A stretch of DNA of 64,000 nucleotides from NCBI RefSeq assembly GCF_030156785.1, contig NZ_JASGLW010000002.1, positions 1 to 64,000 of the forward strand, in the 5' to 3' direction. Positions 32,529-62,976 of this stretch are shown here, one piece after another. The notes beneath the pieces were generated by a model that was given only the letters and a program-made list of their open reading frames with translations, ran no database searches and was not told the origin of the DNA. Both the position numbers and the translations under genes were made by a program. This DNA comes from Methanohalophilus sp. Its GTDB lineage: Archaea; Halobacteriota; Methanosarcinia; Methanosarcinales; Methanosarcinaceae. Positions within the stretch are counted from its first letter, which is position 1, and every line of letters starts with the position of its first letter.

Positions 32529-33047
32529 ATGATCGAAGTAGAGGTCAAGGCGAGGCTTTCTCTTACCCGCGCAAGGGAAGTCTTAAAAGAACTTAAAGCA
32601 AAATTTGTGGAATCAGAGAAGCATTATGACATCTATTACAATGCTCCTCACCGCAATTTTGCCATAACAGATGAAGCCCTCAGACTTCGATTGGTAAACG
32701 GCCGTTCGGTTATGACTTACAAGGGTGAGAAACTGGATGACCTTACAAAGAGCCGAGAAGAGCTCCAGACCACAGTGGAATGGGATTCAACATAGGCAAT
32801 CTTGGATCGACTGGGTTTCACAAAAGCGGCAACAGTTGAAAAACTTCGCGATGTATATAAAGTAGGGGATATTACTGTTTGTCTCGATCAGGTAGACTCA
32901 CTGGGCGAATTTATTGAATTCGAACTGTTTTCAGAAAAAAGCATTGAAGAAAGCCGTGACAAGCTTTTTGAGCTTATGGAGAAATTTGGTTTGGGAGTAG
33001 ACGATTCCATCAGAAAATCTTATATGGAATTGGTGATGGGTGAATAA
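32529..33047 (+). CDS. CYTH-domain protein (class IV adenylate cyclase-like) with in-frame TAG
   Basis: Read across the TAG at 32793-32795, this is a 172-residue CYTH protein of normal length. The first part has the EVEVKARL signature, ALRLRLVNG and MTYKGEKLD; the second has LDRLGFTKAATVEKLRDVYK, VCLDQVDSLGEFIEFEL and IRKSYMEL. Both parts are in one frame with no shift, and the TAG falls at codon 89, between TTVEWDST and AILDRLGF, where relatives have a continuous helix. Pyrrolysine or suppression is likely; a nonsense mutation is the alternative. CYTH enzymes act on triphosphates such as ATP or thiamine triphosphate. The gene starts 4 bp after the DUF35 gene. Confidence 0.82.
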
Positions 33048-39663: not shown

Positions 39664-39721
39664 ATTTTCCATGCACAAATAAGGATTTATGAAGATAACA
39701 TTCAGTCAAAAGGGTATTGAT

Positions 39722-41344
39722 ATGAAAGGAAGTGACCTGTTTGTCAGGTGTCTGGAAAATGAAGGCGTAGAGTATATTTTTGGGATACCGGGAGAGGAAA
39801 CACTGGATTTTATGGATTCTCTTTCCAGATCAGACATCGAATTTATTGTGGTAAGGCATGAGCAGTCTGCAGCATTCATGGCAGATGCCTACGGACGTTT
39901 GGTGGGCAGGCCAGGAGTATGCCTTTCAACACTGGGGCCGGGCGCTACCAATCTCATAACAGGTGTTGCAGATGCGCATCTTGACAGAGCTCCTCTTGTG
40001 GCAATTACGGGGCAAGGCTCTCTTGACAGGGCATATAAGGAATCGCATCAGATTCTGGATGTTGTGGGATTATTCGACAAAATTACCTCATGGAATGCAA
40101 TCGCCACTGCTGCTCACCAGATTCCAGAGCTGGTAGGGAAGGCTTTTGACATAGCAACGGATGTACCGGGCGCTACCCATATTGAATTGCCTGAAGATGT
40201 TGCTTCGCAGGAAACCGACGCAATACCTCTTGAGAAAAAAAGTTACTCTCATTCCTGCAATTTCGAAGAAAATGAATTGCATAAAGCACTTGAAATGATT
40301 TCGGGAGCTTCAAAGCCATTAATCATCGCAGGAAACGGTGTGATTCGTGAAAACGCTTCTGCCGAGCTGGAACAGTTTGTAGATGCTTCGAATATAGGCG
40401 TTGTAACCACTTTCATGGGAAAAGGTGCAATCAGTGCAGACAATGATCATTTCATTGGTTCTATGGGTATGTCAGAGAAGGATTACATCATGTGCGGACT
40501 CGATGTGGCAGATGTTGTTATTACTGTGGGGTTTGATTCAGTGGAATACAGTCCTGATCACTGGAACAAAAGGGCTACCACAAAAATAATTCATGTACAC
40601 ACCAGGCATCCTGAAATAGAATCCAGCTACATACCCGAATGTGCGCTTATAGGTTCACTTAAGACAACTCTCAAAGCAATGCTTCATAAAATACATGCTA
40701 AGGAATTCCCGAAATATTATCGCAATATCAAGGTTTCCATGGAAAATGAGTTGCTTAATTACAGGGATGATCCGTCTTTTCCGATGAAGCCCCAGCGCAT
40801 TATCTGGGAAGTGCGACAAATTCTGGATCGGGGGGACATTCTGGTAAGTGACGTGGGCGCTCACAAACTCTGGATCGGGAGGCTGTATCCCGCATTTGCC
40901 CCGAATACAGTGCTGATGTCAAACGGGCTGGCTTCCATGGGCTTTGCCCTTCCTGCAGCAATAGCTTCCTGTCTTGTACATCCTGAAAAGAAAATAGTGG
41001 CAATTTCCGGAGACGCAGGATTCCTTATGAACCTGCAGGATCTGGAAACCGCTGTAAGACTGGATTGCGATCTTGTTATTGTTATTTTTGATGATTCATC
41101 CTATGGACTCATCGAGTGGGAATGCAACAGGGAATTTGGCTCTTCTTTTGGTACTACTTTCAAAAATCCCGACTTTGTGGAACTTGCGCATAGTTTTGGT
41201 GCTAGGGGTGTACGTGTGCGCAGCGCTAATGAACTGAGTAATATTTTTCAGGATGCTTTCAATGAGGGTGGCGTCTGGCTTGTGGATGTCCCGGTGGATT
41301 ACTCGGAAAATCTGAAGCTCACATCAATAATGGAAGGTAAATAG
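39722..41344 (+). CDS. Thiamine-diphosphate enzyme, acetolactate synthase large-subunit family
   Basis: The 540-residue product has the three ThDP-enzyme domains. The catalytic glutamate is in VVRHEQSAAFMADAYGR, the N-terminal domain ends near residue 180, and the ThDP-binding block is SGDAGFLMNLQDLETAVRL followed by FDDSSYGLIEWE. GDA replaces the common GDG. No small regulatory subunit is nearby, so it may be a catabolic or special-purpose enzyme working with the aldehyde dehydrogenase before it. The ATG at 39722 has AAGGG upstream. It ends in TAG, with TAA three codons later. Confidence 0.85.
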   Translation: MKGSDLFVRCLENEGVEYIFGIPGEETLDFMDSLSRSDIEFIVVRHEQSAAFMADAYGRLVGRPGVCLSTLGPGATNLITGVADAHLDRAPLVAITGQGSLDRAYKESHQILDVVGLFDKITSWNAIATAAHQIPELVGKAFDIATDVPGATHIELPEDVASQETDAIPLEKKSYSHSCNFEENELHKALEMISGASKPLIIAGNGVIRENASAELEQFVDASNIGVVTTFMGKGAISADNDHFIGSMGMSEKDYIMCGLDVADVVITVGFDSVEYSPDHWNKRATTKIIHVHTRHPEIESSYIPECALIGSLKTTLKAMLHKIHAKEFPKYYRNIKVSMENELLNYRDDPSFPMKPQRIIWEVRQILDRGDILVSDVGAHKLWIGRLYPAFAPNTVLMSNGLASMGFALPAAIASCLVHPEKKIVAISGDAGFLMNLQDLETAVRLDCDLVIVIFDDSSYGLIEWECNREFGSSFGTTFKNPDFVELAHSFGARGVRVRSANELSNIFQDAFNEGGVWLVDVPVDYSENLKLTSIMEGK

Positions 41345-41407
41345 TGTGACATTTAAGGGATTATTTACACATTGGTATGTTTTTGTAGCAGCAGGTTAGG
41401 TATTGGT

Positions 41408-60030: not shown

Positions 60031-60055
60031 TTACTTGTTAACCAATAACTCCGCA

Positions 60056-60604
60056 ATGGTTGACATCGTTGTAAATTCATCTGAACGTATACGTAAAATG
60101 GTCTATGCTTCCCTGTTTGCATCAATGAGTTCAGTAGGGGCCTACATGGTAATCCCAATAGGTGGGCCGGTTCCGATAACCCTTCAGTTATTGTTTGTAT
60201 TCTTTGCGGGGGCATTCTTAGGTGCTCGTTGGGGTATGACCAGCATGCTTGTTTACCTTCTTCTTGGAATTGCAGGACTCCCTGTTTTTGCCGGAGGTGC
60301 AGCAGGGTTGGGTGTGCTTCTTGGTCCCACAGGTGGTTACTTGTTAGGATTTGTGGCAGCAGCCTATGTGATAGGTTATCTGGTAGAGCATTTCCCCACC
60401 AAATCATTTTTCCGTGTTTCACTCTATTTCCTTGCGGGAATGGTTACAATTTACGTATTTGGCTATCTGCAGCTTATTTATGTGGCATCCCTCACCCCCA
60501 AGGAAGCATTCATTATAGGGATAGCTCCGTTTATACTTCTTGATGCCATTAAGGCGATCGCTGCGGCCGTATTGTTTACACACTTGGATATGAGCTATGA
60601 TTGA
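60056..60604 (+). CDS. bioY: BioY-family biotin-binding S component of an ECF transporter
   Basis: BioY is the membrane S component that binds biotin. The 182-residue protein has five to six hydrophobic helices and the family motifs GGPVPITLQ, GARWG, and LLGPTGGYLLGF. It is followed by two ATPase genes and the T component, giving a complete ECF module. An upstream TTG at 60035 is open, but the TATA box position fits the ATG at 60056. The last eight bases overlap ecfA1. Confidence 0.93.
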   Translation: MVDIVVNSSERIRKMVYASLFASMSSVGAYMVIPIGGPVPITLQLLFVFFAGAFLGARWGMTSMLVYLLLGIAGLPVFAGGAAGLGVLLGPTGGYLLGFVAAAYVIGYLVEHFPTKSFFRVSLYFLAGMVTIYVFGYLQLIYVASLTPKEAFIIGIAPFILLDAIKAIAAAVLFTHLDMSYD

Positions 60605-61406
60605 AACAAAAAATCTGTCATTTCGGTATTCTGGGGATGATTACATCCTCAGGAATATAAATATTAAGATAACAACCGGTGAATATGTTGCAATTGTGGG
60701 GGAGAACGGTAGTGGTAAATCAACTCTGGCGCGACATCTCAACGGCTTGTTGATTCCTACTGAAGGTTCTGTGAACGTTTTTGGAATGAACACGGCTGAT
60801 AAATCCTGCTTGCAGCAAATCCGTCAGACAGTAGGAATGGTTTTTCAGGATCCAATGACACAATTTGTAGGTGCTACGGTTTGGGAAGACGTCGCTTTTG
60901 GGCCATCAAACCTCTGCTTTCCCCGGAAGGAAATGCTTGAAGCTATTGAGTCATCACTTGCAAGTGTTGGAATGGATATGTTCAAAAAGAGATCCCCTTC
61001 CCAGCTCAGCGGTGGCCAGATGCAGCTGGCTGCAATTGCAGGAGTATTGGCAATGAAACCAAAATGCCTGGTTTTTGATGAATCGGTTTCAATGCTTGAT
61101 TCAGATACCAAAGAAAAAATAATTTCCGTAATCAGAAAATTGCATTCCGAAGGAAAAACTATCATCCAAATTGCTCACAATCTGGATGAAATAAACCACG
61201 CTGAGAGGGTTATTGCTCTGAAAAACGGTGAGGTTTTCTATGACGGGAAAATGGAACCTTTTCTTGGAGATTAGATCTTCTGGGAAGCAGGTCTGGAAAT
61301 ACCTCCCATTATGGAACTTTCCCTGAGACTCAAGCAGGCAGGTATTGTTGAAAATATATCATGTGATGTGAATGTATTGGTGGAGGGCATATGCCGATTC
61401 AGGTAA
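60597..61406 (+). CDS. ecfA1: ECF transporter ATPase EcfA1, with in-frame TAG
   Basis: Reading across the TAG at 61272-61274 gives a 269-residue ATPase. Walker A is GENGSGKST, the Q-loop region FQDPMTQFVGATVWEDVAFG, signature LSGGQ and Walker B CLVFDES. The 43 codons after the TAG (codon 226), IFWEAGLEIPPIMELSLRL and onward, match the C-terminal segment (GL-x-x-P-x-x-x-x-L) found in other CbiO/EcfA proteins. They end in TAA at 61404 inside the start of ecfA2. If TAG were a stop, the ATPase would lack this segment and leave an odd 116-base gap. UAG decoding, probably as pyrrolysine, is likely. Confidence 0.85.
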
Positions 61407-62203
61407 AAAACATAAGCTTTTCCTATTCAAATGATAAACCGGTGCTATCCGGCATTTCTATTTGTCTGAACAGGGGTGAAGTCTCCGGGCTTATGGGAGA
61501 CATTGGTTCTGGCAAATCCACGCTTATCAGACATCTCAATGGGTTGCTACTACCAGATAGTGGGTTGGTTATAGTGGATGATATTCCTGCATCTAATAAA
61601 AAAGCCAGAAAGCTTGTTGGTGTTCTTTTCCAGCACCCTTCCAGACAGTTGTTTGAACAAACTGTTTTCGATGACATCGCATTCGGTCCGAAAAATTATG
61701 GTTTAAAAGGGAATGACCTCAAAAAAACAGTCTTTGAAGCTGCAGATCTTGTGGGTCTGGGAAAAGAGTTGCTTGATCTTTCACCTCACAGGTTGAGTGG
61801 TGGCGAGAAAAAACTTGCATGTTTTGCAGGTATAATTGCCTGTTCACCTCGCTATTTGATTCTTGACGAACCTTTCAGTGGATTGGATAGTGTTTCCCGA
61901 AGCAGGATGGTAAATAGCATTGTAAAGTTGAAAGCAAGTGGATGTGGGATTTTAATAGCATCCCATCATTTTGATACATTTGTCGGGTTAGTTGACAGGA
62001 TTCTATTCCTTGAAAATGGGGGAATTGTTTATGACGGATCTCCAGAGTCCTTTGCTTCAGATTACCCTTTGCAATCTTCCACAATTGCTGCATTGATTTC
62101 CGTATTGCAAAGAAAGGGTATAGACATATCTCCTACGGATTTCACAGTTGAAAAAGCATTTGAAGCAATTCTCTCTGCCTGTAAAAAGGAGGGCACTGGA
62201 TGA
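61391..62203 (+). CDS. ecfA2: ECF transporter ATPase EcfA2
   Basis: The 270-residue ABC ATPase has Walker A GDIGSGKST, Q-loop FQHPSRQLFEQTVFDDIAFGP, signature LSGGEKK and Walker B YLILDEPFSGLD. It pairs with EcfA1 to drive the T component. It is complete without any internal TAG. Its ATG overlaps the read-through end of ecfA1, has GGAGGG before it, and its stop overlaps ecfT (ATGA). Confidence 0.94.
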   Translation: MPIQVKNISFSYSNDKPVLSGISICLNRGEVSGLMGDIGSGKSTLIRHLNGLLLPDSGLVIVDDIPASNKKARKLVGVLFQHPSRQLFEQTVFDDIAFGPKNYGLKGNDLKKTVFEAADLVGLGKELLDLSPHRLSGGEKKLACFAGIIACSPRYLILDEPFSGLDSVSRSRMVNSIVKLKASGCGILIASHHFDTFVGLVDRILFLENGGIVYDGSPESFASDYPLQSSTIAALISVLQRKGIDISPTDFTVEKAFEAILSACKKEGTG

Positions 62204-62976
62204 GAAAATATGATTTTTTTGGGTTTGTTATAAGCAACTCATTTGTTCATAAACTAGATCCAAGAGCCAAGCTTTTTGCCCTTATTGGATTAAGCATTTT
62301 AATATTCAGGATATCGGCATTTCAGAATCTGCTTTTTCCTTTAACCATCTTCATTATGGCAGCATATTTTTCCGGGACATCGATAAAGAGACATGTTTTG
62401 TCTGTCCGTCCACTAATTCCGTTTCTTATTGCCATCTTCTTGTTCCATTTTCTGCTGACCCCGGGTCAGGAATCAATTGGATTCTAGTGTTTTTCGATTT
62501 CGATTGAAGGACTACTCAGCGGCTTCCTTGTGATAGGACGCTTTATTCTGCTGCTTCTTTTTGCTTCTCTCTTTTCAGCAACGACTTCTCCTGCAATGCT
62601 TGCGCAGGCAATTGAAGCAATTTTAAAACCAATCCCCGTCCACCGGCTGGGGGTGACAACTTCTGAAATTGCCACAATGATGGCATTATCAATGAATTTG
62701 TTTCCGCTTCTTTTGCATTATATGGAAGAAGTCAGGGATGCCCAGCTTTCAAGGGGTTTAGGAAATAAGTTCATGATATCCGGAATATTTTCTCTAATAA
62801 TTCCTTTTTTTTCAGGAAGCATGAGACTGGCAGATGATATCTCAGTTGCGATGGAAAGTCGATGCTATCATGGCGGGTTAAGAACACAACTCTATGAAAT
62901 GAAATATAAAAATACAGACTATGGCTTAACTGCTCTCACAGCCATAATATTATTGATGTCAGTTTTTTATTTATGA
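62200..62976 (+). CDS. ecfT: ECF transporter T component EcfT, with in-frame TAG
   Basis: Reading across the TAG at 62485-62487 (codon 96) gives a 258-residue protein, the normal EcfT length. Before the TAG are FVHKLDPRAKLFALIGLSIL and two helices; after it are IEGLLSGFLVIGRFILLLL, TTSPAML, and the two coupling motifs EVRDAQLSRGL and MESRCYHGGLR that bind the ATPases. All key motifs lie on the distal side, so a stop at TAG would give a useless protein. The frame is unbroken otherwise. Pyrrolysine or UAG suppression is likely. Confidence 0.85.

Follow-up and report, generated by a model that had tools for sequence, protein, structure and literature searches.

In the archaeal Pyl code, which Kivenson et al. 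reportedly described in Science in 2025, all TAG codons specify pyrrolysine (Pyl). The stretch of Methanohalophilus sp. DNA analyzed here (the window, 64 kb) comes from a genome that resembles this system in having a pyl cluster, a near absence of TAG stops, and TAG codons at non-conserved positions of ordinary genes; the difference is that here the code is deduced from 364 kb of one draft genome, by sequence alone, and that EcfT, EcfA1, and GuaA are named on this basis as TAG carriers. MtmB, MtbB, and MttB offer an analogy for the in-frame TAG of ecfT, which would likewise be decoded with tRNA-Pyl and PylS, but their Pyl is conserved and catalytic, whereas codon 96 of EcfT is variable and a catalytic role is unlikely. 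Pyl at the UAG of MttB has been measured by LC-MS/MS in Methanohalophilus portucalensis (PMC4928046). In Thg1 of Methanosarcina acetivorans, according to the account of Heinemann 2009 given in PMC2933860, Pyl arose by neutral evolution. Like EcfT, Thg1 is an ordinary protein with a single UAG at a dispensable position, absent in relatives; it is, however, a rare case in a genome described as using UAG as both stop and sense codon, whereas ecfT is one of several TAG-containing genes in a genome in which TAG stops are nearly absent.

The ecfT gene (62200..62976, forward strand) codes for the transmembrane coupling subunit of an ECF transporter and is the last gene of an operon whose order, by profile, is BioY, two ABC_tran, and CbiQ. 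The preceding genes, all on the same strand, are bioY (60035..60604; PF02632), the first in the operon and encoding a biotin S subunit, ecfA1 (60597..61406), a 269-codon ECF ATPase gene matching TIGR04520 (2-265), and ecfA2 (61391..62203), encoding the second ECF ATPase with no internal stop; from the BioY S subunit, we infer that the operon probably specifies a biotin-type ECF transporter. EcfT shares with the EcfT/CbiQ family (PF02361; EcfT of PDB 5d3m, 4huq, and 4hzu) its fold, the S-R-G coupling motif, and an operon that also encodes two ATPases and an S subunit, but among the family genomes listed only the genome studied has an in-frame TAG. The ecfA1 gene is also interrupted, by a TAG at codon 226 (61272..61274, forward strand) where the nearest sibling genome (G033) has Glu (GAA), and the conserved 43 codons that follow complete the ECF ATPase profile TIGR04520.

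As the first-pass annotation had stated, the 258-codon ecfT frame is open apart from exactly one TAG, at codon 96 (62485..62487, forward strand), a predicted Pyl codon at a variable loop position. PF02361 (CbiQ/EcfT; cut-off, 25) matches the whole frame at 89.6 bits across profile positions 2-210 of 216, in an alignment that crosses the TAG, and this score exceeds that of either the half before the TAG alone (23.2 bits) or the half after it (64.1 bits). Two Arg-Gly coupling segments had been placed downstream of the TAG; both Arg-containing segments do lie there and are kept in relatives, but alignment of relatives shows an Arg-Gly in the first alone (S-R-G, residues 184-186, with R185-G186), the second being Ser-Arg-Cys (E-S-R-C-Y at 219-223, with R221-C222). 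The Cys of this second segment is invariant in 30/30 aligned sequences. Folding of the RNA 3′ of the TAG shows no unusual structure (z-score, -0.75).

That the second half alone matches the EcfT profile, at 64 bits, would suit a scheme in which translation stops at the TAG and re-initiates internally, giving two proteins that reassemble. However, the first in-frame start 3′ of the TAG is GTG 62530, 42 bases on; it lacks a Shine-Dalgarno-like sequence at normal spacing and encodes residue 111, within helix 102-128 as predicted by an AlphaFold2 model; these features agree with the earlier reading that there is no ribosome-binding site or good start after the TAG and that the GTG lies mid-helix. 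The true ecfT start has an AGGAGG a few bases 5′. Furthermore, among the family EcfT proteins listed, none is split at the TAG site, and those with long inserts there remain one open frame. We thus regard a split EcfT as extremely improbable.

Comparison with the sibling ecfT reveals 29, 14, and 56 differences at codon positions one, two, and three before the TAG, and 35, 17, and 78 after it, a third-position bias on both sides that is more than expected by chance. With a dN/dS of 0.09 after the TAG, the 3′ half of ecfT is, judging from these substitutions, under purifying selection, contrary to the idea that nonsense mutations have made ecfT and ecfA1 into decaying pseudogenes. Decay would be in keeping with two stops in one operon and with our failure to find a second ecfT in the draft genome, but it would also yield TAA, TGA, and frameshifts, none of which is seen in aligned gene bodies, and guaA, Elp3, and mtmB show the same TAG pattern. 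We consider decay highly unlikely.

The first-pass annotation had suggested comparing ecfT of close relatives at the codon 96 column, and there we find His, Tyr, Gly, Asn, Ser, Ile, or a gap, with His (CAC) in the sibling and Tyr in other Methanohalophilus. None of these relatives has TAG in this column, which argues against a functional (catalytic) Pyl site. The AlphaFold2 model of EcfT, which matches the EcfT chains of solved ECF transporters, has a mean pLDDT of 76.9, lower in the block around codon 96, and it places residue 96 within the hairpin (residues 87-101) that connects helix 70-86 to helix 102-128. In genera g6 and g8 (L163, L164), EcfT has a long insertion at the loop of the TAG site, within a single open frame. 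Because the column is variable and the interhelix loop permissive, a Pyl at residue 96 is probably tolerated and not functional, and on this modeled structure it is most likely neutral.

The earlier proposal that EcfT would be destroyed if translation ended at the TAG, which must therefore be read through, is supported by conservation of the sequence downstream, by an intact set of pyl genes, and by how TAG is used across the genome; the last of these, and not ecfT itself, is the strongest evidence. We surveyed 364 kb (the window plus 300 kb sampled) of the 1.55-Mb draft genome. Of the 57 genes in the window, 32 end in TGA, 21 in TAA, and 4 in TAG, and after each of these four TAGs comes sequence that is also conserved in the sibling, although one continuation is only three codons. 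Across the 364 kb, 8/281 called genes end in TAG—mtmB, pylB, cyaB, an acetolactate-synthase-like gene, ecfA1, Elp3, GMP synthase subunit A, and a small methyltransferase—and only pylB lacks a conserved continuation.

Besides ecfT and ecfA1, at least six ordinary genes in the 364 kb contain TAG. In the window, these include a cyaB-type CYTH-domain gene (32529..33047, forward strand) with a TAG at 32793-32795, where the sibling has Gln (CAG), and the acetolactate-synthase-like gene (39689..41356, forward strand), with a TAG at 41342-41344 where the sibling has Tyr (TAC), three codons before its TAA/TGA end; the length of this three-codon tail is equal in the sibling. Elsewhere, guaA (GMP synthase subunit A; L044:14204-14824, forward strand) has a TAG at codon 156, preceding the GVQWHPE motif with its catalytic His/Glu, and is single-copy, being the only gene over the family cut-off. 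The acetyltransferase domain of Elp3 is completed 3′ of its TAG, the small methyltransferase gene (L039:7999-8613, forward strand) has a TAG just before its NPPFG motif, and an MJ1255-like glycosyltransferase gene (L045:5831-6958, reverse strand) has two in-frame TAGs, at which the sibling has Tyr and Asn.

Alignment to the sibling, limited to called genes, covers 36,540 codons and contains nine TAGs and, within gene bodies, neither TAA nor TGA; six TAA/TGA matches are overruns, all located in the first 14 or the final 3 codons aligned. The robust set leaves out two TAGs, at C9:7177 and C9:61312, that are close to gene starts, since translation may really begin downstream of them, and the ecfT TAG, which falls outside the nine because the sibling ecfT was not called, adds one. 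The sibling codons at the robust sites are CAG, GAG, GAA, TAC, TAC, AAC, and CAC, plus CAC in ecfT; there is no shared amino acid, and several codons are one base from TAG, the pattern that tolerated drift would be expected to give. The TAG share of one-base mutational routes to a stop is 0.38, whereas all of the robust internal stops (8/8) are TAG, with a probability by chance of ~4e-4. A sequencing or assembly error at 62485-62487 might be invoked, as there is a single assembly and the sibling has CAC (His) at codon 96, but errors would produce other stops too, whereas these are all TAG, and we give this explanation only a very slight chance. As a general cause, sequencing error and gene decay are both excluded, because only TAG interrupts gene bodies and TAG stops are nearly absent.

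The machinery for decoding UAG is present, with complete pylT, pylS, pylB, pylC, and pylD genes together on contig C9, a tRNA-Pyl with a CUA anticodon, and mtmB and mttB genes with one TAG each. Two contigs start inside matching mtbB C-termini (G000:C16:2-115, L081; G000:C11:2-115, L082), and the assembly thus seems to break at repeated mtbB genes. The sample combines pylTSBCD and tRNA-Pyl(CUA) with TAG that is not a terminator, pylB excepted, and with TAG in conserved genes other than those of methylamine methyltransferases, as in the archaeal Pyl code. At TAG sites, the sibling has several different residues (Q, Y, E, H, and N), so the inserted residue is unreadable from alignments, and this variation would also be compatible with another amber suppressor tRNA inserting a standard amino acid. 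Nonetheless, in the 364 kb scanned, the only CUA tRNA is tRNA-Pyl beside pylS and we saw no other, which leaves a different suppressor very improbable.

We found one full copy of aRF1 in the genome and no second copy. The usual aRF1 motif is TASNIKS; here, it is QASNIKS, as in all family genera tested, including one that uses TAG as a stop, and we therefore rejected a change in aRF1 as the cause of reassignment. Across the whole family, aRF1 has QASNIKS-type motifs, and some genera have a second, diverged copy (L250-L270, L064, L065). Since this aRF1 shows no alteration that could account for UAG no longer terminating, partial termination is possible, and UAG could be decoded ambiguously, as Pyl part of the time and otherwise as a stop; the amounts of EcfT and EcfA1 would then follow the supply of Pyl-tRNA, tying biotin uptake to Pyl (methylamine) metabolism. 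This would suit the single, ordinary aRF1 and the behavior of UAG introduced in M. acetivorans, which mostly terminates, with 20-30% readthrough (PMC2933860), and it is compatible with all of the sequence observations. However, the near absence of TAG stops and the occurrence of TAG in housekeeping genes such as the single-copy guaA favor efficient decoding, and we view ambiguous decoding as a possibility to be entertained but on balance doubtful.

Genomes elsewhere in the family differ in their use of TAG. The 8/281 genes ending in TAG in the genome studied compare with 2/165 in the sibling and 0/70 in a third Methanohalophilus genome (G032), and with 1/71, 2/60, and 12/58 in representatives of genera g7 (G020), g13 (G079), and g10 (G043), respectively. 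All six genomes have pylS, and because G043 has this gene and yet 12/58 TAG ends, pyl genes alone do not remove TAG stops; most TAGs in G043 are soon followed by another stop and have non-coding scores, like true terminators. By these counts, Methanohalophilus has nearly lost TAG stops. In shared genes, there are more private TAGs in the genome studied than in its sibling.

The TAG that ends pylB (G000:C9:38311-39363; L001 2228-3280) stands apart. It lies right before or overlaps the pylC start in 8/8 Methanohalophilus genomes and in all examined genomes of genera g7, g13, g5, g3, and g4; pylB ends in TGA or TAA in most g10 genomes and in those examined of g14, g2, g6, g8, and g9. It also ends in TAG in M. 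mazei, M. acetivorans, and M. burtonii, and in TAA in M. barkeri (PMC2933860). Among the relatives compared (L103-L161), several genera that otherwise avoid TAG stops keep the pylB TAG, and the TAG-using g10 mostly has TGA. We speculate that the pylB TAG, the lone credible terminal TAG of the sampled genome, may be regulatory, possibly through Pyl-dependent feedback.

We think it very likely that UAG is decoded genome-wide as Pyl, that codon 96 drifted to TAG, and that a working full-length EcfT containing Pyl is made. UAG would be read by tRNA-Pyl(CUA) charged by PylS, and throughout the genome, given how rarely genes end in UAG. Gaining a TAG would then carry little penalty, so that codons at tolerant positions could drift into TAG, and the ecfT codon, probably an ancestral Tyr codon (TAT or TAC, one base from TAG), would have become TAG in a variable loop joining two transmembrane helices. 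Full-length EcfT with Pyl at residue 96 would function as a biotin transporter with EcfA1 (also containing Pyl), EcfA2, and BioY. With TAG read as Pyl, ecfT is almost certainly whole and not broken, and fits a known kind of altered genetic code.

A more far-reaching proposal, which we consider unlikely though worth stating, is that TAG is a true sense codon and Pyl is required for life—for GMP synthesis, tRNA modification, and biotin uptake—even without methylamines, with the TAG at the pylB end before the pylC start sensing the supply of Pyl-tRNA and tuning Pyl synthesis accordingly. According to PMC4928046, Mahapatra 2006 deleted tRNA-Pyl in M. acetivorans, which then no longer grew on methylamines. 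Here, we predict that cells would not survive the loss of pylT, as single-copy housekeeping genes depend on UAG being decoded. In the Methanohalophilus sp. genome, ecfT, ecfA1, guaA, Elp3, and other genes would be split or omitted by standard annotation. The contribution of these analyses is the set of genes identified as carrying TAG, most notably those for a single-copy GMP synthase subunit and for two components of the same transporter; from this set, pyrrolysine is predicted to be indispensable in Methanohalophilus sp.
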